Source: Thermodesulfovibrionales bacterium (lineage in GTDB: Bacteria > Nitrospirota > Thermodesulfovibrionia > Thermodesulfovibrionales > Dissulfurispiraceae). Taken from it: 40,840 bases of DNA. A program made the position numbers and the translations under genes. Positions within the stretch are counted from its first letter, which is position 1; every line of letters starts with the position of its first letter. This document shows, piece after piece, positions 18,228 through 37,533 of this stretch. The stretch covers positions 1 to 40,840 of the forward strand of contig JAGUWD010000041.1 of the NCBI GenBank assembly GCA_020062545.1, read 5' to 3'. The notes under the pieces were generated by a model, which saw only the letters and a program-made list of their open reading frames with translations, had not been told where the DNA came from and ran no database searches.

Positions 18228-18557
18228 ATGCATATTCATCTGACGGGCATTATAGTCTTTATTTTTGCTCTTATAGGCGTATGGTTTACTTATAAAAGCT
18301 ACCATGAAAATAAGCTGAAAGACAATCTATCTGTTGTTATCAACGACTACAAAGACCTTGTATTGACAGTTGTTAAAGACCCTAATCAGAAACAGCAGGT
18401 AGAGCAGTTGTTTTCAAAGATACAGGCTAATGCAGGCGGCAATGCCAATAGTTATATCGAGCAGATTAAGAGCATTGCCATGCAGTATGGCAATTCGGCT
18501 GAGATACAGAAACAGTTGGAACGCTTAAAGGAGGCGATTAATGCAGACAAGCAGTGA
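18228..18557 (+). CDS. Small unknown membrane protein in the tra operon
   Basis: The product is 109 aa from ATG 18228 (an open frame also reaches 18192 inside traW, with no ribosome site of its own). It has one N-terminal membrane helix (LTGIIVFIFALIGVWFTY, about 5-22) and a soluble helical domain, Gln-rich near the end. I recognise no family. It is the first of three accessory genes inserted between traW and traU; F has no equivalent here. It overlaps the PilZ gene by 17 bp. Confidence 0.6.
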   Translation: MHIHLTGIIVFIFALIGVWFTYKSYHENKLKDNLSVVINDYKDLVLTVVKDPNQKQQVEQLFSKIQANAGGNANSYIEQIKSIAMQYGNSAEIQKQLERLKEAINADKQ

Positions 18558-19188
18558 TAATTTACAACCTGTCAGTCATTACAATCTCCCCCATGAGAGG
18601 TGCGGGATGTATTGCAAAGATATGATTGATTGTCTGTCAAATAATCCTATTTATGTAAAGTGTATAACAGATATAACTATCAACTCTCTTTGCTATGTGG
18701 CAGGCGTTATAAGTCTGATGCTTCAAGAAAACAAAATCAAAACTTATGAACCAATGCTCGTAACTGCCAGCGACCAAATACAAAACATAGCCTTATGGAT
18801 AGAAAAACTACAAAAATACAGCAGTAATCTTCATATTTTAGACAACAGCAGAATTAACGAAGACCGTCGCATATGCCCTCGTTTTCCAACTGCTGATATG
18901 TCAGCAGTAATTAATAACAAGGAATACCTTATCAAAAATATTGGTTTGAAAGGTTGTTTTATTGAAACTCAAGTGCCTTATCCATCCGGGACAACTATAA
19001 ACATGGAAATAGGCATAAACGGTGGAATACCTGTTATCGCAGTAATAAGACACTGCTCAGAGAAAGGTATAGGTGTGGAATTTGTTGAAATGGATAGAGA
19101 TAAAGAGAAAGAGTTTTTATGGCATATGGCAGATTTTTTCTTTAAAGCCAGTAAATCAGAAAGTTGTATTAAAGCTATTGGAGACTAA
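18541..19188 (+). CDS. Cys-bundle plus PilZ domain protein (candidate c-di-GMP effector)
   Basis: The product is 215 aa, cytoplasmic. N-terminal residues 21-51 hold spaced cysteines (21, 25, 31, 41, 51) in helices, resembling DUF326-type four-helix Cys/copper-binding proteins. Residues about 108-200 look like a PilZ domain: RRICPR (109-114) for the RxxxR signature and NIGLKG (133-138) for the D/NxSxxG motif, with Gly replacing Ser, then beta strands. PilZ domains bind cyclic di-GMP and often control motility, surface and secretion machinery. Within a conjugation operon this hints at c-di-GMP control of pilus activity (inference). Gly at the Ser position could weaken binding. The next gene is a stand-alone copy of the N-terminal domain. 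Confidence 0.6.
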   Translation: MQTSSDNLQPVSHYNLPHERCGMYCKDMIDCLSNNPIYVKCITDITINSLCYVAGVISLMLQENKIKTYEPMLVTASDQIQNIALWIEKLQKYSSNLHILDNSRINEDRRICPRFPTADMSAVINNKEYLIKNIGLKGCFIETQVPYPSGTTINMEIGINGGIPVIAVIRHCSEKGIGVEFVEMDRDKEKEFLWHMADFFFKASKSESCIKAIGD

Positions 19189-19190
19189 CC

Positions 19191-19481
19191 ATGCTTGATT
19201 TGCAGAAACAGGTCGACACATTGAAAAAAGAAGCAATTGAGGAACTCAATCATATAGACCGTTGCTTTCGCATCTGCAGACGGAACAACGGGAAGTGTTT
19301 TTCGGATGTCAATCACATTAAGTGCGTATCTGATATGGTTATCAATAAAAGCTGGGCAGCATTAGTAACGATTAATAAGGCAAAACACGAGTGTGACTGC
19401 GAGCATATAGCCTTTTTGCTTGAGCAATCATCGAAAAACCTTGAGGAATTAATAAGGTGGGCAAGAAGAATTCAAAGATAG
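19191..19481 (+). CDS. Stand-alone Cys-bundle protein, paralogue of the PilZ protein's N-terminus
   Basis: The product is 96 aa. Cysteines at 25, 29, 36 and 45 and the KCxxDxxIN core (KCVSDMVIN) align with KCITDITIN in the preceding gene; both end in a Trp-containing helix (LIRWARRIQR versus LWIEKLQK). It therefore looks like a duplicated domain without the PilZ part. A further CDC pair occurs at 68-70. Similar to DUF326-like metal-binding helical bundles (weak). It starts 2 bp after its paralogue and overlaps traU by 25 bp. Confidence 0.6.
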   Translation: MLDLQKQVDTLKKEAIEELNHIDRCFRICRRNNGKCFSDVNHIKCVSDMVINKSWAALVTINKAKHECDCEHIAFLLEQSSKNLEELIRWARRIQR

Positions 19482-20437: not shown

Positions 20438-21306
20438 TAGCGTTATTATTCGCTTATAGCTTTGCCTTCGCAGAAGATACGCATAAGGTATCTATCGAGA
20501 TACCCACGCCCTGTCATAAGGTCGATAAGATTGATGGCAATAAAGTCTATCTCAAGTCTTCTGACAAGCAATGTATACAGGTTATAAGCAGGACCTATAT
20601 AGATATCCATAAAGAAATAACAAGCGTCTATACCTATGTTGACGGCGCAATGTGGAAAGAGCAAAAGGTCATGCCTGTCGAGGATAGCGTTATGGCTGTA
20701 AAAACAGATATTAAAAAGTTCATGCCTAATCCTGAAGACCTCGAAAGAGTAAGGCAATTTGAAAGTTTAAAGAGACAGGAACACATAGAAAATGCCAAAA
20801 AGTATGAACACCTGAAAGACAATGTAAACATAGATAAAGTTCAGGATGTTGCGTTGCCTCAGAATAAGAAGCAGACTACGAAAATAGATATCGCCGCCTT
20901 GCAGAATGAAAAACAGAAGTATATATTTTATCTCTTTTCAAAAAGCATTCCTAATATTGCTGTGGAATCCGTATTTAATCAGTCTAAAAAGCTCGATATT
21001 AACTTTTACGGCGTTTTAAGAGGGATAGATAAAGAGAGGGTTGTCCTTGAGAAAGTTAAGGGCATAAAGGGATTTGAGGAGATTACAGTAAAGGTTAATC
21101 CTCTTATCTTCAAAGCAGTCGGAGCTCAAATGGTTCCGGCTATCGTTTATGCTTACTGCCCTCCACCGGCGATGTTTAGAACAGCCGATTGTGAATGGAA
21201 ATATGTCGTTTACGGCGATATTAGCCTTCTCGGGGCACTTGAGGTCATGGGGAGGCACGACAGCGAGGCACAGAGGCTTTATGAGGAGTTGTTGAATGCG
21301 TTTTAG
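20410..21306 (+). CDS. trbC: TrbC (F-type) with long N-terminal extension
   Basis: The product is 298 aa from TTG 20410 behind GGAGGG. Signal peptide residues 1-21 (YSFAFA-ED). The C-terminal part (about 175-295) matches F-type TrbC: YLFSKSIPNIAVESVF, FYGVLRG, KVNPLIFKAVGAQMVPAIVY and YGDISLLGALEVM. F TrbC is 212 aa, so an N-terminal domain of about 90 aa (20-170), containing a short Lys/Glu helical stretch, is extra. Acts in the periplasm with TraW. Gene order U-TrbC-N equals that of F. Confidence 0.8.
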   Translation: MLHRISVSIIALLFAYSFAFAEDTHKVSIEIPTPCHKVDKIDGNKVYLKSSDKQCIQVISRTYIDIHKEITSVYTYVDGAMWKEQKVMPVEDSVMAVKTDIKKFMPNPEDLERVRQFESLKRQEHIENAKKYEHLKDNVNIDKVQDVALPQNKKQTTKIDIAALQNEKQKYIFYLFSKSIPNIAVESVFNQSKKLDINFYGVLRGIDKERVVLEKVKGIKGFEEITVKVNPLIFKAVGAQMVPAIVYAYCPPPAMFRTADCEWKYVVYGDISLLGALEVMGRHDSEAQRLYEELLNAF

Positions 21307-22639
21307 GCTTATTACAGTGTTAATATACGCTTCTGTGCTTCTGCTCTTCTGCTCTTCTGCTCTATCCTTTGACATCAATTCCTTTTCCTCTGGCATCCAG
21401 CAGAAAAACACCCCTGAGCAATGGATAAAAAAGAATCAGATACCAAATTATGACGAAAGCTATCTGAATCAGGGTAATCTCAGCGGTTATGAAGACCAGC
21501 AAAAGGCTCAGAAGTTTATGGATCTGGCTGCTCAGCTGATACAGTCGCAGTATACTTATACTTGCTCAATGATCAGAAAAGTTGAGGACAAGACTTTCTT
21601 CCAGTGTAATGTTGACGGAAGCATATACCCTTCAATGGGATTATGCACTGCTAATTGCAAAACTATCTATGCTTGTCAGCAAGAGCAATGTTTATATCAG
21701 AATATGTGTTCCGCGTATCAGGTTTGTCCTCTCGGAGACTATCCCTGTGTAAACAACTCCTGCACACAGACCGGAACATGCTCGTCAACTCAGGTCACCA
21801 CAACTCAATACCAGTGCCCCACAAACGGACAGACCTACAGCGACCAGACGACTTGCAATAACGCTTGTCTAAGTTATGCCGCGCCTATATATAATCAGAC
21901 AATCTGCACGCCAACGAGTTGGGCCACTGGATTTGGAATGCCATGCTGTACTTGCTGGAACTTTTGTGGGCCGCAAGGCTACTTTTCACAAGGGTATAAT
22001 CAGTTGTATGTAAATGGCGGTTATCAAGGGCTTATTTCAGGAGTTCCGTCATGCGATACAGGGTGTGATTGGGGGCAGTTTGACGTTCAGTGGGCAAGCG
22101 GTGGATCCAGTTCATATACTTTGGGACGAGCAGAATCATGGGAGTTGTGTAAAACTTATAATGCTTGTAATATTGCTACGGGCTATACTTCAGAAGGTAT
22201 TCAGTACTATTATTGCACTAATTCTAACAGTATAACTTGTCCATCTGGTTATAGCGTAACAACAATTGATGGTAAAAGCGTATGTCAGAAAGGCACATCA
22301 TGCGTGACACAAAACACCACTACCACCAAATACCAGTGCAGTCTTACAGGCACACAGTATGATACGCAGAGCCAATGCACTTCGGCATGTCTGAATACAG
22401 CTACATGCAACACAAATTACAAATGCACCTATGAAAACAGTATCTATTCTGATGCTTCTACCTGTCAGGCCAATTGCTCGTTTTATCAGTGCCCCTCCGA
22501 TGGTGCGTATTATCTAACCGCTCCTGAATGCCAGAACGCCTGTGCCTCGTTTATCTGCCAGAAAGATGGAGTTAAATTCACTTCTATGTATGATTGCCAA
22601 TTGAATTGTAAGGAGGCCGGCTCATGCACCGCACAATAA
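21296..22639 (+). CDS. Secreted Cys-rich protein with six repeats
   Basis: The product is 447 aa. Signal peptide (about 1-24) then a Gln-rich head. The body has about six copies of a ~25-aa unit, (F/Y)xCxxxGxxYxxxxxCxxxC: YQCPTNGQTYSDQTTCNNAC, YQCSLTGTQYDTQSQCTSAC, YKCTYENSIYSDASTCQANC, YQCPSDGAYYLTAPECQNAC are the clearest, with copies at both ends and a Gly/Cys-rich middle (about 200-270). About one residue in ten is Cys, so it must be disulfide-rich and outside the cell membrane, relying on DsbC. Neighbour of TraN with the same 16-bp overlap style. Function unknown; a surface adhesin or TraN accessory is plausible. It overlaps trbC by 11 bp. Confidence 0.65.
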   Translation: MRFRLITVLIYASVLLLFCSSALSFDINSFSSGIQQKNTPEQWIKKNQIPNYDESYLNQGNLSGYEDQQKAQKFMDLAAQLIQSQYTYTCSMIRKVEDKTFFQCNVDGSIYPSMGLCTANCKTIYACQQEQCLYQNMCSAYQVCPLGDYPCVNNSCTQTGTCSSTQVTTTQYQCPTNGQTYSDQTTCNNACLSYAAPIYNQTICTPTSWATGFGMPCCTCWNFCGPQGYFSQGYNQLYVNGGYQGLISGVPSCDTGCDWGQFDVQWASGGSSSYTLGRAESWELCKTYNACNIATGYTSEGIQYYYCTNSNSITCPSGYSVTTIDGKSVCQKGTSCVTQNTTTTKYQCSLTGTQYDTQSQCTSACLNTATCNTNYKCTYENSIYSDASTCQANCSFYQCPSDGAYYLTAPECQNACASFICQKDGVKFTSMYDCQLNCKEAGSCTAQ

Positions 22640-25143
22640 GCATTGTAACACTGATAGCCTTTTTATTCACACCTCATATAAATATTCTTATGCCTTTACA
22701 GATTTTTGAACCGTCTTCAGCCTATGCCGGAATAGTCGAAAACATAGAAAACACCTGTCCTTCAGATCCTACACAGAACGGCAAATGCGCTTTAATCGAA
22801 ACAAAGGTTGATAATCCCTTCTGCAAAGACATAAATGGACAACAGATATGCAAAGACTGGTGGAGAAAGGATTTTAAATACAAATGTTCAGGCGCTTTCG
22901 ACCCCGATACAATCCTTGCCAAAGTAGGCAATCAATACTGCGACTATAAAAATGAATGCACAGAATGGATTGATGTCGAAAAGCACGGAGGAGAGACATC
23001 CTGCCGTATTTATGTGGATACAAACCGCCCTGGATGTAATTCCAATTCGTTCGGTTATAACTGCATAGTCAATGACTGTGGGGACCTTTTTCAGAGATGT
23101 TCTTTAAAACAGTATGTGAAATATTCGGACATACATGATAGGGCAAATATGACTGTAGATATTAATTGCGATCCTTCTTCTGGAAACTGCTCCAGCCAAA
23201 TGCTTGACAGCCAAAAGTCAGGCATAAAGTTAGGTTTATATACTTTTAGCTGTCCATCGGATGTTAGAAAGGTATGTAAAACCTATTCTGGTAAAGTTCA
23301 GTGTCCTGACGGTAGAACTCAAGTCTGCAATAAGGTCAAAACCTGCAAACAGCAGAAAACAGTAAATTCTAAGGCGTACGAACTCAAATCATGTACAGCA
23401 AACAGGAATATGCAGTCATACTCCGAGAAAAAAGTGTGCAACCCTTATGGCTGTCAGAGCAGCACACAGGCGCAGGCATACAAGGCAAACAATCTTTGCA
23501 TAAAGACAGGCGAGACAAATCTGTGTAAAGCAGAAAACGGATGTTCGGATTCAGGCAGTTATGGGTTAGGCGGATTTGTCAGAAACGGCGGGACATTCAA
23601 CTGGCTTGGCGGATGGAATGCCTGTGACTGGGGGTATGCAGAGGTAAGAGGGCAGGGGAATAATACAATCAATGTTCATGCCTTCGCAACAGGTTGCAGC
23701 GGTCAATGCGGAGACCTCAGCGTAAATATCCCCATAGATACTGCACCAGGGACAGTCATAGGCTATGTATATCCACACTGGGAGGGTAGTTGTGTAACAC
23801 TATCTGTCACATATGACGGCTATGATTGCTCAGGTGGTGGCTGTATATATCACATAGGCTTTCATGGCATGGGAGCGCAAGGAGTAAACATTCCTATTGT
23901 GAATGTTGCCGAAAACTTCAACTGCTATCAGGACAGCTATCAGGACTGCTCTTTCGGAGAAGGACTTCAGTGTAATCGTCTTTCCTCTCTGGACATTAAC
24001 AATCTTGAATGCGTGGAATATGATCTTGATGTCGACAATGCAGCCAAAAATCAGTGTAAGAGATACATTGTCAACTACGATTGTCCTAAAGACAAGCAGA
24101 TAACCGAATGTGCGGAGTATGATGAGGTTTTAAGATGTAATGATGGTATCTATCCCATCAGGGATGTAAGGACTGACAGCTACGACTTTTCAGCCGATTT
24201 CTCAAAGGCAATGGCATTAGCACAGGCAACAAATGAGCTCAAGCATGTGTGGAGCGGTGAGCCTTATAGGTGCGAGAGCGGGACATGGTGGATGTTTGAT
24301 AGTATGAGTTTGGGGGATTATTTCACCAGCAAACTTATGTCATTTGCTTTTCAGCAACTTGGAGCGGAAATCATGTCGAAGGTAGGCAATCTGATAGGTG
24401 GTAGCGGAGGGTGTGCCGAAAGTCTAATAAACGCATCTACCGCTGCTGTTAGAAACACTTATGGATCGCTTGATTCATCAAATATACGGTATAGTGGAAG
24501 TTATACCCCGAGCACAGGAGAGTTAAAGATTATGTCTTCAGAAACTCAAGGCGTATGGGATACAAGGGCAACACTAAATACTGGTAGTGCAAATTCTTGT
24601 TTTGCTGCTGCAGGGATGAGCATAGGAAATACTGTTGGACTGACACCGGAGCAGTCTTCGAAAATAATTGCATTTATGGGGAATCCTATTGTGCAATTTG
24701 CTGCAGGATTTGTTATTGATATGGTTACTTCTATCAAAAACTGCTCCACCTGCACCGATGAGAAGTGTGCTACAAAATATAACCAGTATAAGGAATACTC
24801 TCTTATCTCTAATCGTCTTTGCCATCAAGTTGGCAATAAATGTACTTCAAAGCTTAGCCTTGGTTTTACTAAAATCTGCCTTCGGACCGGCTATAAGCAC
24901 TGCTGCTATAACTCTAAATTTGCCCGTATTCTTGTAGAGCAGGCATATGCTCAACTCGGGTATCCATGGGGAGATTATGATAACCCTCAATGCACCAATC
25001 TAACCTTCGATGATTTAAAGAGACTTGATTTCTCAAAAATGGACTTCTCGGAGTTCATCGAGGAAGTAACAGCCAAAATGAAGGGGAAGGTAGATGAGAA
25101 TGCCTTAAAACAGAGGATGCAGGATAGGATTGCAGTACCTTGA
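22624..25143 (+). CDS. traN: TraN, mating-pair stabilisation outer-membrane protein
   Basis: The product is 839 aa (F TraN 602), signal peptide about 1-34. Many cysteines throughout; the C-terminus has the diagnostic KHCCYNSKFARILVEQAYAQ, LGYPWGD, then a Asp/Phe-rich segment (LDFSKMDFSEF). TraN is the donor outer-membrane receptor that stabilises mating pairs and dictates recipient preference. The extra length is mostly in the middle, including a Gly-rich segment (about 315-415) that may be a species-specific recipient-binding tip. It ends the first tra block, 18 bp before an opposing gene. Confidence 0.85.
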   Translation: MHRTISIVTLIAFLFTPHINILMPLQIFEPSSAYAGIVENIENTCPSDPTQNGKCALIETKVDNPFCKDINGQQICKDWWRKDFKYKCSGAFDPDTILAKVGNQYCDYKNECTEWIDVEKHGGETSCRIYVDTNRPGCNSNSFGYNCIVNDCGDLFQRCSLKQYVKYSDIHDRANMTVDINCDPSSGNCSSQMLDSQKSGIKLGLYTFSCPSDVRKVCKTYSGKVQCPDGRTQVCNKVKTCKQQKTVNSKAYELKSCTANRNMQSYSEKKVCNPYGCQSSTQAQAYKANNLCIKTGETNLCKAENGCSDSGSYGLGGFVRNGGTFNWLGGWNACDWGYAEVRGQGNNTINVHAFATGCSGQCGDLSVNIPIDTAPGTVIGYVYPHWEGSCVTLSVTYDGYDCSGGGCIYHIGFHGMGAQGVNIPIVNVAENFNCYQDSYQDCSFGEGLQCNRLSSLDINNLECVEYDLDVDNAAKNQCKRYIVNYDCPKDKQITECAEYDEVLRCNDGIYPIRDVRTDSYDFSADFSKAMALAQATNELKHVWSGEPYRCESGTWWMFDSMSLGDYFTSKLMSFAFQQLGAEIMSKVGNLIGGSGGCAESLINASTAAVRNTYGSLDSSNIRYSGSYTPSTGELKIMSSETQGVWDTRATLNTGSANSCFAAAGMSIGNTVGLTPEQSSKIIAFMGNPIVQFAAGFVIDMVTSIKNCSTCTDEKCATKYNQYKEYSLISNRLCHQVGNKCTSKLSLGFTKICLRTGYKHCCYNSKFARILVEQAYAQLGYPWGDYDNPQCTNLTFDDLKRLDFSKMDFSEFIEEVTAKMKGKVDENALKQRMQDRIAVP

Positions 25144-25161: not shown

Positions 25162-25416
25162 TTATCTTGCCAATGCAGCAACTTTTGCCTCCAATGACGC
25201 GAGCCTTTCTCTTATTTGGATGGCTATATCTATCTTCTCGTCAAGCCTTTTTATTTCAGAAAGCATTTCAGTTCTAATCGAATCTACTTTCCCATCAAGC
25301 CTTGCAACCCCTGAATCGATTTTCTCATCGAGGCGTTTAATCTCAACTTGAATAGCTCTGAGTTCCGGAGCTACTATGTCTTGCAATGCCTGTTTTACTT
25401 CTTCATAGACTCCCAT
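25162..25416 (-). CDS. Small coiled-coil protein with RLDEKID repeats
   Basis: The product is 84 aa, no signal or membrane segment. It is almost wholly heptad-patterned, with RLDEKID repeated at about 29-35 and 57-63 and a related VARLDGKVDS between. Start ATG 25416 follows GGGAGGAG. It is the last gene of the minus-strand block. Coiled-coil proteins of this type occur at 28176, 34706 and 34983, also opposite to tra. Function unknown, possibly oligomerisation or structural. Confidence 0.6.
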   Translation of the reverse strand: MGVYEEVKQALQDIVAPELRAIQVEIKRLDEKIDSGVARLDGKVDSIRTEMLSEIKRLDEKIDIAIQIRERLASLEAKVAALAR

Positions 25417-25473
25417 ATTAATTGCTCCTCCCTTTCTTTTCTTAATTTTATGCCTTTTACTAAAATTTTACAA

Positions 25474-26355
25474 CTATTCTGTTTTTTTCTGATTTTCTGC
25501 TTTCTGTACCACACACTCAGGGATTTTGATTTCGCCTTGAGTGGGCTCACTGTTATCCATGATCTTACTTCCAACTCCACCTGCTATGGTAGCTGTTGCT
25601 TCAGTGGCGGCGCCTATGCCTACATTCGTTAAGGCGGTTGTTACTCCAGTGGTAGCAGGACCGATTACTACACCGGCTATCGGAGCAGCTAATGATACCG
25701 TTCCAAGCACTACACCAACAAACTTTTGTAAGAATGATGGGGATTCTGTTTTAGTTTCTAAAAATGATTCTATTTCGTTTGTTTGTATATCTTTTTTGTT
25801 TATAACTGATTTACAAGCAGTATGGCTATAACCTTTATTATTTGGATTAATATATGTCTTGTTGATAAAAGAGAACACACGGTCAAGTGGCATCTTTTTT
25901 ATGTGAATAGTCTTAAACTCTGAATTTTCATTCTGACATTTTGTAAGTGTTTCTGTTCCTTTTTGTGTGTCAGTGCATACCTTCTCTACTTTAACAATAT
26001 TGCATGTTGTGACATCGTTAATATTCTCACAAGAAAGTGTAGAATCAGTACCAACCGTGTAAGATATAAAAACTATTTTCTCACCTTTTGGTTTTGGAAA
26101 ATCACTTTTATCTATATTATATTGGCTTTCTACAGTCCTTATAACGAACCTTTCCTCATTGTTTTCCTTTTTTAAGTGTGAAATTCTTGTTATAAGCCCT
26201 TCTATTTTATTGTCAGGGCCTTTTTTATAAAACTGTTCTATCGCAACCTTATCCTTCATCTCTGGATTCGTAAACACCTCTGGCATTTCCGCCCCGCTAA
26301 TTGCAGGTAAAAAGATAAAAACAGCAGAAAGAACAACAGCTATAACTTTCCTCAT
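25474..26355 (-). CDS. Secreted protein of unknown function, Gly/Ala-rich C-terminus
   Basis: The product is 293 aa from ATG 26355, chosen because AAGGAGGG precedes it and it begins a signal peptide (MRKVIAVVLSAVFIFLPAIS). A charged, beta-like central region follows with four cysteines (about 110-145), then a hydrophobic glycine/alanine-rich segment (about 205-265) such as VGVVLGTVSLAAPIAGVVIG, which could span or insert in a membrane. It lies just after a ribbon-helix-helix gene in the minus operon. I recognise no family; entry or surface exclusion is one possible role. Confidence 0.55.
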   Translation of the reverse strand: MRKVIAVVLSAVFIFLPAISGAEMPEVFTNPEMKDKVAIEQFYKKGPDNKIEGLITRISHLKKENNEERFVIRTVESQYNIDKSDFPKPKGEKIVFISYTVGTDSTLSCENINDVTTCNIVKVEKVCTDTQKGTETLTKCQNENSEFKTIHIKKMPLDRVFSFINKTYINPNNKGYSHTACKSVINKKDIQTNEIESFLETKTESPSFLQKFVGVVLGTVSLAAPIAGVVIGPATTGVTTALTNVGIGAATEATATIAGGVGSKIMDNSEPTQGEIKIPECVVQKAENQKKTE

Positions 26356-26356
26356 T

Positions 26357-26518
26357 TTATTTCCCTCCTTTTTTACAATCATAATCCTTTATAAGCCTTG
26401 CTATGGCCTCTCTTATCAAATCCGTCATGTTTCTACCCTGCTTGTCGGCAATAGCTTGTAAGGCGTCCTTCTGATCTTTGGGTACAAATAAATCAAGTCT
26501 GACTTTTTTCTGTTCCAT
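26357..26518 (-). CDS. Ribbon-helix-helix protein (CopG/Arc-like), 53 aa
   Basis: The encoded 53 aa are MEQKKVRLDLFVPKDQKDAL, then a helix-helix part, ending in a basic tail KKGGK. The alternating hydrophobic N-terminal strand (VRLDLFVP) and two helices with NMTDLIREAI give a textbook ribbon-helix-helix fold. It overlaps the 3' end of 26493-27032 by 26 bp and ends one base before the start of the next gene, so it is embedded in the operon and likely regulates it. Possible antitoxin or autoregulator. Confidence 0.7.
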   Translation of the reverse strand: MEQKKVRLDLFVPKDQKDALQAIADKQGRNMTDLIREAIARLIKDYDCKKGGK

Positions 26519-27032
26519 AGTTATTTCTCTCTAAATATTCTTTACATGCATAGGCAATAAGTGCAATTCCACTTACCCCTGATATTAAAAATATAGCTCC
26601 GAAGATTATTTTATAAGCATTCCACTGTATAGGGCCGCCTAAAAGAGTAAATATCTCTTTCATTTGAGGTAGTAATGTATAAAGTACTACACCGAATGCT
26701 GCATTTACAGCTATGTTTTTCATGGGTGTCATTATGGTAAATGATAACGATAACAGAAGTAAGGTAATCCCAATGATTACATATAGCCGCTCTTCAGATG
26801 TCCCATAGCGAAGAGTTTTATAGACATAAAAACCACCTTTTAATACGGCAGTAACAAAAACACCAATAATGGCGATTGTCAAGGCTTGAACTGCAAGTAT
26901 CCCAATAAACATTGCTATTTCATAGAAACGCCCCTGGCCGCCTGTAAGCAAAACTATCACAGCACAAAACACCATAATTGATAAAACTACCGAGAAAAAG
27001 TTTATAAATGCAGATTTAATTTTTTCTTTCAT
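26493..27032 (-). CDS. Polytopic membrane protein, unknown
   Basis: The product is 179 aa with about four to five hydrophobic helices (about 10-29, 36-62, 83-103, 108-127, 140-162) and short loops; no known family motif. Ribosome site TTGGAG is present. It follows 27044-27514 by 11 bp. A membrane partner of the adjacent exported proteins is plausible, e.g. immunity or exclusion. Confidence 0.6.
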   Translation of the reverse strand: MKEKIKSAFINFFSVVLSIMVFCAVIVLLTGGQGRFYEIAMFIGILAVQALTIAIIGVFVTAVLKGGFYVYKTLRYGTSEERLYVIIGITLLLLSLSFTIMTPMKNIAVNAAFGVVLYTLLPQMKEIFTLLGGPIQWNAYKIIFGAIFLISGVSGIALIAYACKEYLERNNYGTEKSQT

Positions 27033-27043
27033 ATAACTCCAAT

Positions 27044-27514
27044 CTAATTTGTTTTCAAAGGTGTTACTTCATCCGGCCTGACCTGCAATATGGCATTTGT
27101 CCCATACGGCTTAATAAATAAATAATCGCCGTATGATAACAGACCATCCTTTACTCTTTTTCTCTCTACTATTTCCGCTTCTTTGCCTCGGAATTTAATT
27201 TTCCCGGTGGCAATATTTTGCTCTAAGGCGAGTTTGTATTTATATTTTGCTTGGAGTAGTGTCTTGCCTTCCTCAGTGTTATAAAAAATCATATCATCAT
27301 ACATTCCAACCATCATAGCAATAGGCATTGCCACTGCTACATCAAATGCTCTATTTGCAAAATCCCAAAATCCTATTTTGTTGTTTTTATATAAAGAGAT
27401 GTGTGGCTTCATAAGGACATAGTAATCGTCTGCAAAAATATAGATACCAACAAGAACTAATGTTATTATAGTTATTATAGCTATTATGGCTCTTGTATTC
27501 GTATAATCTTTCAT
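27044..27514 (-). CDS. Single-pass membrane protein, unknown
   Basis: The product is 156 aa with an N-terminal hydrophobic helix (about 10-27), another weak hydrophobic stretch at 57-71 (VAVAMPIAMMVGMYD), then a soluble charged domain rich in beta strands. AGGGG lies before ATG 27514. No family recognised. It sits between the mini-TraB gene and the polytopic protein in the minus block. Confidence 0.6.
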   Translation of the reverse strand: MKDYTNTRAIIAIITIITLVLVGIYIFADDYYVLMKPHISLYKNNKIGFWDFANRAFDVAVAMPIAMMVGMYDDMIFYNTEEGKTLLQAKYKYKLALEQNIATGKIKFRGKEAEIVERKRVKDGLLSYGDYLFIKPYGTNAILQVRPDEVTPLKTN

Positions 27515-27525
27515 GTTTTAGCCCC

Positions 27526-27930
27526 TTACTTATTCATTTTCTCTATTACTATAGTAACATTCTTTCCTGCAGGAAGCGTCCCATCTTTAAGTATAAAAAA
27601 CATACCATTTTCTGGTAATACTTTGCCGGTGATTGTAAATTCATTAAGCAAACCGTTTTCAGTAAGGCATGTCATTTTCATAGGGGAAAGAACAACACCC
27701 AACTCATATTTCTTAGGTCGTATCAATGAAGCAGATGCAAGTACAATACACCCTTTCTCTGAAATTGGCTGAGTTACTGAAATTATTACAGGCACTTTTT
27801 CAGAATGCATTTGTGGCGGCAGAAAAGCTGTGATCATTACCCCTTTGAGTTCTTTTGGAGTATCACCAAGAGATGGGCTTACTACTACAAAACAAATAAG
27901 AATAATTATAAAAGGCAATAGTTTTTTCAT
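27526..27930 (-). CDS. Exported protein resembling the periplasmic domain of TraB
   Basis: The product is 134 aa, with a signal peptide (about 1-22, VVVSPSLG-DT). The mature part has features of the VirB10/TraB C-terminal domain: GVMITAFLPPQ, then EKGCIVLASASL and MKMTCLTENG, echoing KGCMVLSS and MNCRDKNG in the plasmid's own TraB, and ends in LPAGKNVTIVIE similar to TraB's MPGRKVTVLFE. It lacks the cytoplasmic, membrane, linker and outer-membrane antenna parts. So it looks like a stand-alone periplasmic TraB domain. Start ATG 27930 follows AGGAGG. It is the first gene of the minus operon. Confidence 0.6.
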   Translation of the reverse strand: MKKLLPFIIILICFVVVSPSLGDTPKELKGVMITAFLPPQMHSEKVPVIISVTQPISEKGCIVLASASLIRPKKYELGVVLSPMKMTCLTENGLLNEFTITGKVLPENGMFFILKDGTLPAGKNVTIVIEKMNK

Positions 27931-28033
27931 TACTTTTAAACCTCCTGTAAGTCTACCTTAAGGATACCCTCGCCAAAGGCGTTGGGGTTCTTTCTTTGAT
28001 TTTATAGCCTGCACTCTTATCTCCCATAATTCT

Positions 28034-28062
28034 TTTATACGTTATTTTACTGTATTTGTCAA
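28034..28062 (-). promoter_or_regulatory. Sigma-70-type promoter for the minus-strand block
   Basis: On the minus strand TTGACA (28057-28062), a 17-bp spacer and TATAAA (28034-28039) match the consensus closely. Transcription would start near 28027 and run leftward to the mini-TraB gene, leaving a leader of about 97 nt. The leader contains a hairpin at 27971-27981 (CGCC-AAA-GGCG). The gap 27931-28175 holds no other gene. Confidence 0.7.
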
Positions 28063-28175
28063 GAGGAAAATTTTGTTGCAAAATCTTCATTACAACAGAA
28101 AAGTTGCCCTTTTGAATCTACTGGTGACTATATATAGGAGAGACAGACAGAAACTCGGATGTTTTTGCTCAGGAA

Positions 28176-28445
28176 TTATAATATCTTAACCAGTGCTGCT
28201 ATGACTGCAGCCTGGGCTACCAGCATTCCCGCTACCCATTTTATTGTGCTGTTTTTTGCCTTTTCTATTGACAACTGCAATTCCGTTTTTGTTTTTGCCA
28301 AAGATTCTTCGAGATCTTTTTTTGTAACCAATTGCTCATCAACAACCTCTCTGAAAACCTCGGCAATTTCTTTCGCTGCTTGCTCGTTGAGATCTGCGTT
28401 TTTAAGTCTTTCGTAAATCTTTAGGGTGTCTACAATAGCTGTCAT
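28176..28445 (-). CDS. Small coiled-coil protein with C-terminal membrane helix (DUF1640-like)
   Basis: The product is 89 aa. A charged coiled coil (about 25-65, with VTKKDLEESLAKTKTELQLS) is followed by a single C-terminal membrane segment (VAGMLVAQAAVIAALVKIL), a layout seen in DUF1640/CCDC90-like small proteins. Start ATG 28445 follows AAGGAG. An overlapping plus-strand frame at 28159-28416 is its shadow. It lies upstream of, and separate from, the promoter at 28034, so has its own promoter, not recognised. Confidence 0.65.
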   Translation of the reverse strand: MTAIVDTLKIYERLKNADLNEQAAKEIAEVFREVVDEQLVTKKDLEESLAKTKTELQLSIEKAKNSTIKWVAGMLVAQAAVIAALVKIL

Positions 28446-28511
28446 TCTTTAACTTCTCCTTTTATTTATTTTTACCATAATCCCGGCACTTTAGCAAGGC
28501 AAAATTTCAGG

Positions 28512-28535
28512 GGCTACCTGCGAAAGTAATATATA
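28512..28535 (+). promoter_or_regulatory. GGCTACC box with TATATA
   Basis: GGCTACC (28512-28518), an 11-bp gap, then TATATA (28530-28535). The block CTACCTGCGAAAGTAATATA is nearly identical to the one at 28895 before traF and shares box geometry with 6510 and 7264. It drives the small gene at 28565. No -35 consensus hexamer is evident. Confidence 0.55.
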
Positions 28536-28564
28536 CAGAAAGCAGAGGAGAAGAAAAAACAGGA

Positions 28565-28819
28565 TTGAAAAGGAGGCCCTATGAAAATTTTAGTCTTCTT
28601 TTAAGCAGCACCGCTGGTGCTTATTTTGAGAGAGATGGCAAACAACAGTTAACCCCACAAGAGGAAGAGTGCTTAGAGCGATATGTAGCTTTTCTGACAG
28701 CTATGGAAACGCTTTCTCCAAATAATGCTGCCGCCTATGAGGCTATCATGTCCAGCGGCCGATACTCAGCTTGCGAAATAATGAATTTTATTGAAAAGCG
28801 AAGACAGAACCAAAAATAA
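28565..28819 (+). CDS. Small unknown protein before traF
   Basis: The product is 84 aa if TTG 28565 is used; the better ribosome site (AGGAGG, 28571-28576) instead points to ATG 28581 in another frame, which encodes only seven residues (MKILVFF) before a stop. So either a weak TTG start is real, or the seven-codon frame is a leader peptide and the longer gene starts further in. The protein is acidic and helical (LTPQEEECLERYVAFLTAME), family unknown. A strong terminator follows, so it is a separate transcript from traF. Confidence 0.5.
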   Translation: MKRRPYENFSLLLSSTAGAYFERDGKQQLTPQEEECLERYVAFLTAMETLSPNNAAAYEAIMSSGRYSACEIMNFIEKRRQNQK

Positions 28820-28850
28820 TCTGCTCTTATTTTCCTCAATTACCCCTTAA

Positions 28851-28886
28851 TCCCCCCTGACTTTTTCCTGTCAGGGGGGATTTTTT
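28851..28886 (+). terminator. Strong Rho-independent terminator
   Basis: TCCCCCCTGA (28851-28860) pairs perfectly with TCAGGGGGGA (28871-28880), extended by one C-G pair into the loop, followed by TTTTTT (28881-28886). It closes the small gene at 28565 and insulates it from the traF promoter immediately downstream. Confidence 0.93.
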
Positions 28887-28895
28887 GTCTTCATG

Positions 28896-28919
28896 GGTTA
28901 CCTGCCAAAGTAATATATA
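28896..28919 (+). promoter_or_regulatory. GGTTACC box with TATATA, promoter of traF-traH-traG
   Basis: GGTTACC (28896-28902), an 11-bp gap, then TATATA (28914-28919). It follows the terminator directly and precedes traF, whose GGAGG site is at 28941-28945. The AGTAATATATA unit is present twice in tandem (about 28909 and 28926), so a second -10 is available. This gives the second tra block its own promoter. Confidence 0.6.
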
Positions 28920-28952
28920 TACAGAAGTAATATATATATAGGAGGTACCCCT

Positions 28953-29969
28953 ATGTTCGGACAGGATATAGAGAAATATAAACAACAGGCAAAACAGACA
29001 TTGCACGAATGGGCTATACAGCCCAGACCGCCTTTAAAAATGCGTCTCTGTAAAGTTTTCAAGCAAATGTTGTTGATAATACTCGGAACTTTTATACTTA
29101 TTTTGATTTTATTTCTTGCAAAAGTAAAGGTAGCAAAGGCTGAGGCTATTCATGGAGACAAGCCTGTAAGGGGCTGGTTTTGGTATGAAGATCCGGTTGT
29201 AGAGGAGAAAAAAAAGCCGGAACAACCCAAAGAGCCTGAAAAACAGAAAGAACCTGAAAAAACTGTCAAAAAAGAGGAACCTAAAGAAAACATCAAGAAA
29301 GACTTCGATTTTCCTGTTATTGCCGATGCTCCGCCTGTTTTGCGGAAATTTCTCAAAGAGCCAACCGAGGAAAACGCTCAGGAATATCTTGCATGGCAAT
29401 ATCAGTATTTCCAGCATCTTAAAAAGATAGGCTATAACTTAAGAAATGCGTATCTAAGATACGGCGGTCAGTTATATCCTATCAGTGGGTATCCTGAAAG
29501 CGCTCTGGCATCTATATATTTTCTTAAAGATAGAGACAATCTTATTGCTAAGCATATCGCATCGGCAAGAGACAAAATAGGACTTATATACTTCTATTCT
29601 ACCGACTGCGCGACATGTCAGGGGCAAAAACCTTTGCTTTTAAATTTCTTGCAAAAGCACAGCTTATCAGTTAGAGGAGTAGCCATTAGTAGAGAAATGT
29701 CTATTAGTGGTGAAATAGATGCTTCTTTACCCTTTTTATCTGTAAATGATCCTGTTATGGTGCAGCGATTGGTTCAACGATACAATGTTACGACAATACC
29801 GACGATACTGGCTGTTATCGATGTTAACGGACAGCCCAAAATTCAGGCGTTAGGGGTAGGGCTTACGTCTGTGGATTTAATGGAGTCTCAGATTATTAAT
29901 TTCATGATACAGGAAGGGTTTATTAAAGAAAAAGACTTAAATCCTAATTTTTTGATAGAAGGAAATTGA
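28953..29969 (+). CDS. traF: TraF, thioredoxin-like protein with intact CxxC
   Basis: The product is 338 aa (F TraF 247). A cytoplasmic N-terminus (about 1-36), a membrane helix (about 37-58), then GWFWYEDP, the TraF hallmark, a Pro/Lys/Glu repeat linker (about 80-115), and a thioredoxin domain with STDCATCQG (Cys219, Cys222) and VTTIPTILAV (cis-Pro). F TraF has lost the catalytic cysteines; here they are present, so a redox function is possible alongside DsbC. TraF, TraH and TraG form the mating-pair stabilisation complex. Its stop overlaps the traH frame. Confidence 0.85.
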   Translation: MFGQDIEKYKQQAKQTLHEWAIQPRPPLKMRLCKVFKQMLLIILGTFILILILFLAKVKVAKAEAIHGDKPVRGWFWYEDPVVEEKKKPEQPKEPEKQKEPEKTVKKEEPKENIKKDFDFPVIADAPPVLRKFLKEPTEENAQEYLAWQYQYFQHLKKIGYNLRNAYLRYGGQLYPISGYPESALASIYFLKDRDNLIAKHIASARDKIGLIYFYSTDCATCQGQKPLLLNFLQKHSLSVRGVAISREMSISGEIDASLPFLSVNDPVMVQRLVQRYNVTTIPTILAVIDVNGQPKIQALGVGLTSVDLMESQIINFMIQEGFIKEKDLNPNFLIEGN

Positions 29970-35346: not shown

Positions 35347-37533
35347 TGGAAAGCTAAGGGGTATAAAAGAGTTTTTAAGGAATTCTTTTCGGACTTGAAC
35401 AAATGGGCATACCTTTATTACGACACCGAGCTTTTCAAGGATGATACTTTTGCCCTAATTGAGCAAAGTGATGCTAATCTGGCGAATCTGCAGGAAGCTG
35501 TGGAGAGAATTCTTGGGTTGAGTGCTTGGTCAAGAACATTCGGTATGGGATTGATACATTATAACTACAGGGCCATAGACGAAGATATTTTTGGCAAGAC
35601 CTATGAGATATTTCTTGCAGAACAAAGAGAGGAAAGAGGTATTCACTATACACCGTCTGTAATTACAGAATCTATGGGGCTGTCTTTAATAAACGAGTTG
35701 TTTTTACCGCATGCGGACGAATTGTTGAAATCTATCGAAGAACAAAATTTCGATGATGCCGAGAAAATAGTTAAGAAAATCTTAGCTATTAAAATAATAG
35801 ACCCATCATGTGGGTCAGGAAGTTTTCTGGTTAAACTGTTGAGGCATATATGGAACATATATCAAAACTTAAAAAAAGAAACTGAATGGGCAGTACAGAA
35901 AACAGAGCTTTTAGAACCACAGGACATAGCAGATAGAAAGCAGAAAATACGCAAAATCAGACAAATGCTTACCCTTGATTCAAATAGAAAGCTCATTCCC
36001 TTGATAATCTTGAGGCATCTACATGGTATAGACCTTGATGAAAAAGCTCTTGATGTAGCAAAAGTTAACATTTGGAAAGAGGCTATTAAACTGTGCCCTA
36101 ATGATTATAGGTACACTTCTCTTTCTTCTAATATTGACCACATTCTGCCAAATTTAGAGCTTAACTTTATACATGCAAATTCCCTTGTTGATTTTTACGA
36201 TATGGAGTGTGTAAAACACCTTGAACCTTATAAAGAAGATATTAAACAACTGCATAAGCTAAGAAACACATACATAGATAATCCCTTCGATCCTACTCCA
36301 ATAGATAAATGCAAAGCAATTATAGAAAAGTTGCGAGTTGTGCTGTTTGACGCCTTCAAATCTACCTATGGTGAATTTGAACCCTTGCCTCTTTTTGCAC
36401 CCCTGAACTTTTTTTATTGCTTTTTTGACAATAATGGCAAGCCACTATATAATACTGTTGCAGGTTTTGATGGAGTAATAGGAAACCCTCCCTATAACAT
36501 CTTCACGGAAACGGCATATTTTAAGCAGTCAGTTGCGGCTGGAACGGGTAATTTATTCGGGCACTTTATCGTTAAAGGGGTCTATCTTAATAAGGCAGAA
36601 GGCGCATTTAGTTTTATAGTTCCACTGTCATTCACATGTGGCAGCGATTATGAAAAAGTTAGGCAACTTGTTTATAAAAATTATGGCCATCTAAAAACAT
36701 CCCATTATTCAATCAGGCCGGCAAAATTATTTCCGGGAGTTGATCAGAGGATGACAATTTTCATCGCAACAAAGAAGGGGAGTTCTCCGTGTATTGTGGA
36801 GTCCTCGCGTCTTTACAGATTCACTAATGATGAAAGAGACCAGATTGTGAAAAATCCCGTTACGGGAGAAGTAGGACCGGTATCTAAAGGGTTTATTCCA
36901 AGAATAGCAGACTCTGTTGGAGCTTCTATATATAAGAAATTAAATATGATTGATAAGACAATTGGTTGCTATCAGGTAAAAAATGGGATAAAAAAAACCA
37001 ATATAGATGATAATTTTGCTTGGTGGTATCACAGTGTTGCAAGATATTGGATAAAGGCATATAATTTTTTACCATATTTTACTAGGAATGAAGTAGCTGG
37101 TATTTCATCAAAAATAAATAAATTTTATGCTTTTACGGAAGATATAGCAAAAGTTTGTGTCGGATTAGTCAACTCAAATTTATTTTATTTCTGGTGGATA
37201 ATTCAATCTGACGAATTTGACGTATTACCGTCAGAAATATTATCTATGCCAATGCCAGAAAGCCTTTTAAAGGATGCAAAAATCCCCGTATTAGTAGATA
37301 ATCTTATGACTGATTACAAAGAAAAGGCATTAAGAAAAACACTGAATATAAACGGTGTAAAAATACAGATGGATGAAATACATCCTCGAAAATCAACGAA
37401 GATAATATTTGAACTCGATAGGGCAATAGCACCGCATTATGGCTTGACGGAAAAAGAGATTATGTTTCTGCAGGAGTATGACAAGCGTTTCCGATTAAGT
37501 GATGAAGAGGATATAACAATCAAAAACGAATAA
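35347..37533 (+). pseudogene. Eco57I-like N6-adenine methyltransferase, 5' truncated
   Basis: The frame is open from 35347 (after a TAG at 35344) and reads through the IS junction; a TTG at 35395 gives a 712-aa reading. AdoMet motif I DPSCGSGSF (about residue 152 from 35347) and catalytic motif IV GNPPYN (about 379) are typical of the Eco57I/type IIG group, with a C-terminal target-recognition region (about 560-690). The endonuclease or helical N-terminal part expected upstream is absent, cut off at the transposase remnant. It may still produce a stand-alone methylase from the TTG, but no ribosome site is seen, hence pseudogene. Confidence 0.75.

Follow-up and report, generated by a model that had tools for sequence, protein, structure and literature searches.

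The 40,840-bp stretch of DNA analyzed here (hereafter "the window"; the whole of contig JAGUWD010000041.1 of a Thermodesulfovibrionales bacterium) encodes an F-type conjugation system, in which Pfam models recognize TraL, TraE, TraB, TraV, TraC, TraU, TrbC, TraN, TraF, TraH and TraG. Two of its plus-strand genes, traN (22624-25143; PF06986, E value 7e-10) and traF (28953-29969; PF13728, E value 1e-31), are separated by six minus-strand genes at 25162-27930, which converge on traN. The first-pass annotation located and described these genes correctly, as judged from open reading frame (ORF) calls and from the Pfam matches of the flanking genes. Neighboring genes in the set are spaced by gaps of 11-12 bases or overlap slightly, the only exception being a 57-base gap ahead of the last gene. 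Because the six genes are so tightly packed, they form one operon. Our analysis centers on one of them, P0002, which represents a new family of exported proteins encoded convergently to traN, with surface exclusion as their most likely role.

The operon begins with P0003 (27526-27930), an exported protein of 134 aa. It is followed by P0004 (27044-27514; 156 aa), which has a single N-terminal transmembrane (TM) helix, and by P0001 (26493-27032; 179 aa), a polytopic membrane protein with four hydrophobic segments. Next come a 53-aa ribbon-helix-helix (RHH) DNA-binding protein of the CopG type (26357-26518) and P0002 itself (25474-26382; 302 aa). The 3'-most gene of the operon, located between P0002 and traN, encodes an 84-aa coiled-coil protein (25162-25416). 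The products had been characterized as all small and either exported, membrane-bound or coiled-coil. Export or membrane features are indeed present in the 134-, 156-, 179- (four TM segments) and 302-aa proteins, but one gene, of ~290 aa, is not small. The regulator is recognized by the Pfam model RHH_1 above its cut-off (E value 4.8e-7).

Upstream of P0003, at 28034-28062 on the minus strand, lies a perfect match to the σ70-type promoter pattern TTGACA-N17-TATAAA, as the first-pass annotation had also observed. The related pattern TTGACA-N17-TATAAW occurs without mismatches just twice in the 40.8 kb of the window, and only 0.9 hits would be expected by chance at up to one mismatch. By these sequence criteria, the element is a genuine promoter that serves the operon. 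A generic promoter scan missed it because its final base is A. The four larger operon genes have a GC content at third codon positions (GC3) of 0.25-0.33, compared with 0.39-0.46 for most tra genes and 0.35 for traF.

Of the six proteins, only P0002 has homologues at the same place in other elements, and the complete set was found in no other element; the six genes are thus not conserved as a unit. Four elements of the family retain the region: the window, two elements with intact copies of P0002 and a fourth with a broken copy. In all four, the P0002 gene is kept convergent to traN and has its own promoter. The element of GWB2_47_37 (contig MHDU01000074; genome G116, locus L032) matches the tra genes of the window at mostly 40-90% identity, including an orthologous traF, and a minus-strand P0002 homologue is the sole gene between its traN and traF. 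P0002 is therefore likely to be the ancestral resident of this interval. The second intact homologue occupies the same place in an element of SKS1.bin28 (locus L034, apparently genome G251). In G014 (locus L026), a complete genome of the same genus, a decayed copy follows what is left of traN within a few bases, behind a vapBC-like pair. The stop codons of traN and of the P0002 homologue lie ~4-94 bases apart in these three other elements, and in the window one 84-aa gene separates the two. A profile built from three sequences retrieved no further convincing member from 230 genomes of the class, and no relatives of P0002 were found in searches of viral contigs, plasmids and phages.

Inspection by eye revealed an outward-facing σ70-type promoter ahead of each of the other copies: TTGTAA-17-TATAAA in G116, TTGACA-17-TATATA in L034 and, for the combined vapBC-P0002 set of G014, TTGACA-17-TACATT. 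P0002 diverges faster than its neighbors TraN and TraF. It shares 38% identity with the G116 copy, compared with 60% for TraN and 62-65% for TraF, and 28-33% with the G251 copy, compared with 58% for TraN. GC3 of the homologues is lower than that of their own traN genes in the two other elements (0.32 versus 0.41, and 0.46 versus 0.62).

Additional relics were seen in these genomes. The remnant in G014 (L026 9100-13400) comprises a traN end with an in-frame stop, the broken P0002 homologue, the vapBC-like pair and transposase-like ORFs. It also includes an intact, distant P0002 paralogue (311 aa). No intact traN was seen close to this gene, and it could be an orphan involved in exclusion. The element is present a second time in SKS1.bin28, as a decayed copy (L033) with no match to traN or traF, in which a gene for a 447-aa cysteine-rich protein is almost directly followed by a traH fragment.

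The true start of P0002 is likely to be an internal ATG at 26355, which sits one base past the stop codon of the RHH gene, behind AAAGGAGGGA, and would yield a protein of 293 aa. The predicted architecture begins with a type I signal peptide, followed by a conserved mature N-terminus (AEMPEVFTNPEMKDK) and a variable, cysteine-containing middle. According to hydrophobicity analysis, the C-terminus forms a hydrophobic hairpin rich in glycine and alanine, after which comes IPEC. A signal of the signal-peptidase-I type is present in every copy. Identity among the copies is lowest in the middle segment (18-32%) and reaches 37-62% in the hydrophobic C-terminus.

These features invite comparison with Sfx of IncC plasmids, a constitutively expressed exclusion factor of the outer membrane whose specificity is set by the TraN of the donor (PMC11493245). 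In the IncC plasmid pAR060302, a gene for a 286-aa protein is convergent to traN and 39 bases away from it, which matches sfx in size and place. Like P0002, Sfx of the IncC/IncA plasmids is exported, is ~290 aa long, is encoded convergently next to the 3' end of traN and is confined to a family of F-type elements. Sfx also has a promoter independent of transfer control, and the promoter sequence ahead of P0002 would allow the same. Place, orientation, size, export, an own promoter, faster divergence and a variable middle together lead us to propose that P0002 works as Sfx does without being a member of the Sfx family. P0002 would be the constant, surface-exclusion-type resident of an insertion hotspot, with variable cargo around it, and the other operon genes are probably such cargo, placed between P0002 and its promoter. 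We assign this interpretation a probability of roughly 45%. The first-pass annotation proposed that the whole set is an independently regulated, envelope-directed module acting on the type IV secretion system, for example in exclusion, inhibition or defense against a rival element. As an exclusion function, that idea fits P0002 well, which is convergent, exported, family-restricted and fast evolving and has its own promoter. The six-gene set, by contrast, lacks conservation as a unit, which the annotation had named as grounds for refutation.

If P0002 acts in this manner, it would be expressed constitutively from its own promoter, apart from the transfer genes, and exported via the Sec pathway. 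The C-terminal hydrophobic hairpin would anchor it in the envelope. In cells already harboring the element, the variable middle of P0002 may mask or occupy the receptor that the TraN adhesin of a new donor requires. Mating pairs would then not be stabilized, and redundant transfer would fail. P0001, P0003 and P0004 would be element-specific extras, which possibly form an additional barrier in the inner membrane or periplasm.

Several observations weigh against a role of P0002 in exclusion. Sfx is a lipoprotein, whereas P0002 carries a signal of the signal-peptidase-I type together with a hydrophobic hairpin at its C-terminus, and its cleavage region (AISGA/EMPEV) contains no cysteine, so there is no lipobox. 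Homology to Sfx was considered and rejected (blastp E value 4.5; hhalign probability 0.1% with a three-row profile), and neither Pfam nor NCBIfam yielded an exclusion-family match for P0002. The surface-exclusion protein TraT, which forms an exclusion pair with TraS in the F plasmid (PMC12658005; PMC12624023), is a lipoprotein too. Its use of TM α-helices in the outer membrane (PMC12658005), on the other hand, is a point in favor, as P0002 is exported and has a hydrophobic helical hairpin. An AlphaFold model of P0002 built from three rows is too poor to interpret (predicted local distance difference test score (pLDDT) of 32). The tips of TraN in the window and in L034 appear alike by eye, whereas the P0002 middles are unlike, and three intact copies are too few for an analysis of co-variation with TraN. 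Moreover, a toxin-antitoxin-like pair stands at the same boundary in another element (L050), and several elements have unrelated genes there. Position alone thus does not imply exclusion.

Other comparisons also returned no relatives. P0002 and its homologues gave no match to the Pfam TraT family at E values up to 1, and searches of solved structures with P0002 and with P0003 found none. In contrast to sfx, P0002 of the window is separated from its promoter by other operon genes. In the F plasmid, traS and traT are located downstream of traG on the transfer strand rather than in the traN-traF interval. P0001, which we take to be TraS-like in size and topology only, has no exclusion-family match in Pfam or NCBIfam and is not beside traG. 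No relation between the operon proteins and the TraS/TraT pair was found with Pfam.

The leading competitor is that the interval is purely a cargo hotspot, in which unrelated envelope and regulatory genes fill a tolerated gap among the tra genes and have roles outside mating, such as in stress, phage adsorption or surface changes. Insertion at this boundary is ordinary. The traN and traF genes abut on one strand in F-type systems of Aquificales, whose elements belong to the same family of type IV secretion systems, and in Rickettsiales-type and sphingomonad systems. The boundary has been filled by unrelated, independent insertions in a Nitrospira metagenome-assembled genome, a betaproteobacterium, a member of Magnetococcales and a deltaproteobacterium. 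In SXT/R391 integrative and conjugative elements, which have an F-type system, two hotspots out of five (hotspots 3 and 4) likewise place variable DNA between traN and traF (PMC2791158). These two border a conserved gene block, whereas the constant part here is a single exported protein of another family, encoded on the reverse strand.

The contents of the insert also suit a cargo hotspot. No convincing relatives of P0001, P0003 or P0004 were found in 100 related genomes, 72,556 plasmids and viral contigs, and a search of 386 genomes of the phylum gave no homologue of P0003. These three operon proteins were seen in the window alone, and the GC3 of the four larger operon genes is low. The 84-aa coiled-coil gene is not present at this site in the other elements, and related genomes gave only weak matches. 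This gene and the RHH gene are too short for firm statements about distribution, and the latter was left out of the searches of other genomes. However, a pure cargo hotspot leaves unexplained why P0002 is the one gene to persist: each of the four elements in which the region survives has it at a fixed site and in a fixed orientation, and it is not seen elsewhere in the class. Insertions at traN-traF are common enough, but a lasting resident is unusual. We regard an interval filled with cargo alone as less likely than the surface-exclusion reading, though it is a serious alternative.

A second alternative is that the operon tunes the conjugation machinery of the donor. P0003 would be an exported mimic of the TraB barrel, with P0001 and P0004 as membrane partners, and competition with, or modification of, the outer-membrane core complex would lead to fertility inhibition or to the blocking of a rival element in the same cell. 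P0003 matches TraB at 28% identity over 72 aa (blastp, pairwise E value 5e-5), and its hhalign E value of 5e-4 is the best among all comparisons of insert and window profiles. In a ranking of 2289 ORFs, TraB proteins came first and second. P0003 aligns with two stretches of the barrel in the right order, and the region of the antenna helices is missing. None of 20,000 shuffles reached the colinear score. This score was, however, devised after the match had been seen, and ~300 profile pairs were compared. The best single-domain score was equalled by 3 of 20,000 shuffles, and P0003 had no Pfam hit, with no match to TrbI at E values up to 1. An AlphaFold2 model from the single sequence has strands at the expected places but a pLDDT of 41.

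Weak, colinear similarity to two parts of the TraB/TrbI/VirB10 barrel domain thus accompanies clear differences, as P0003 has no inner-membrane anchor, no linker and no antenna insertion. The resemblance of P0003 to the C-terminal β-barrel of TraB/TrbI without its antenna is a suggestive lead. When profiles of the remaining insert proteins were compared with those of the window's proteins, nothing above chance emerged. Only a single copy of P0003 is known, and hence there is no evolutionary support for such a function. Tuning of the donor machine seems to us quite improbable. A combination of this idea with exclusion would have two layers, in which P0002 blocks the TraN receptor while P0003, as an exported TraB barrel with neither anchor nor antenna, plugs or poisons the outer-membrane core complex, with P0001 and P0004 as partners and the RHH protein as a dedicated repressor. 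We consider this elaborate arrangement slightly more improbable still.

The RHH protein probably is an autoregulator of the operon and would repress its own promoter. Its sequence also gives a match to the NCBIfam ORF56 copy-control model that is below the cut-off (2.7e-6). A 6+6 palindrome at 28070-28084, close to the promoter, was noticed by eye and rejected as a candidate operator, since by a rough estimate it is within chance at the local AT content.

That the RHH protein is instead the antitoxin of an addiction module, with the overlapping 179-aa membrane protein P0001 as toxin, has a low probability, similar to that of a two-layer system: the two genes overlap by 26 bases, the RHH protein has weak RelB-type similarity (1.4e-4) and, by eye, an RHH-like and a PIN-like gene immediately precede the broken P0002 copy in G014, but the 53-aa protein stops ~8 residues past its domain and has no toxin-binding tail, its neighbors match no toxin family and nothing in PADLOC, and a toxin-antitoxin pair would not need three more exported or membrane genes.

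Two features between the operon and traF had been overlooked in the first-pass annotation. The first is a gene at 28176-28445, on the minus strand and upstream of the promoter, whose product is an 89-aa coiled-coil protein with a C-terminal TM segment. It resembles the Pfam CCDC90-like family just under the cut-off (3.6e-7) and matches phrog_17872 (2.6e-12). Members of this widespread small family turned up in 18 of the 60 genomes covered, often as multiple copies at unrelated places, and the gene is probably a separate, independent insertion. In this lineage, lone CCDC90-like/phrog_17872 genes are found at up to 10 unrelated chromosomal sites per genome (L077-L080), and these small proteins behave as products of a dispersing gene.

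The second feature is a 384-bp unit, flanked by 30-nt direct repeats (28506-28535 and 28890-28919) that are 90% identical. It contains a plus-strand ORF of 84 aa (28565-28819) with one distant homologue, in G203, and a strong intrinsic terminator (28849-28882, plus strand) with a 13-bp stem and then a T run. This terminator would insulate traF against plus-strand transcription from upstream. The repeat-bounded unit and the lone CCDC90-type gene can be read as further layers of insertion, as expected of a cargo hotspot. The repeated element GGNTACCTGCNAAAGTAATATATA (28506-28540 and 28890-28924) stands ahead of both the 84-aa ORF and traF. A similar core, TTCAGGGGTTACC, occurs as a single copy before traF in G116, and the corresponding place in L034 (8210-8260) has a near-palindrome, CCAAAAGTAATATA..TATATTACCTTTGG. 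The repeated element and the near-palindrome are perhaps an operator of the traF operon. A search with Rfam found no RNA in the window at the gathering score, and the weak matches correspond to chance or to the terminator hairpin.

Elsewhere in the window, a PilZ-domain gene (E value 3.9e-6) and a gene for a 96-aa cysteine-rich protein (18541-19481) lie within the tra operon, immediately ahead of traU. The two share a cysteine-rich motif by eye, have no match in the orthologous G116 element and possibly link mating control to cyclic di-GMP. The gene preceding traN (21296-22639) encodes a 447-aa protein with 42 cysteines, which has no Pfam match and is conserved in sister elements. A type IIG restriction-methyltransferase-like gene (35395-37533; PADLOC 4.5e-36) is found near the contig end, together with genes for an Xre-type regulator and an integrase-like protein.

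If P0002 is Sfx-like, the position next to traN has been occupied by unrelated proteins both in plasmids of gammaproteobacteria and in distant, apparently Nitrospirota, elements. A gene convergent to traN would then be a positional marker for surface-exclusion genes, whose divergence defeats sequence searches. TraN-directed exclusion would also reach well past the groups studied so far.

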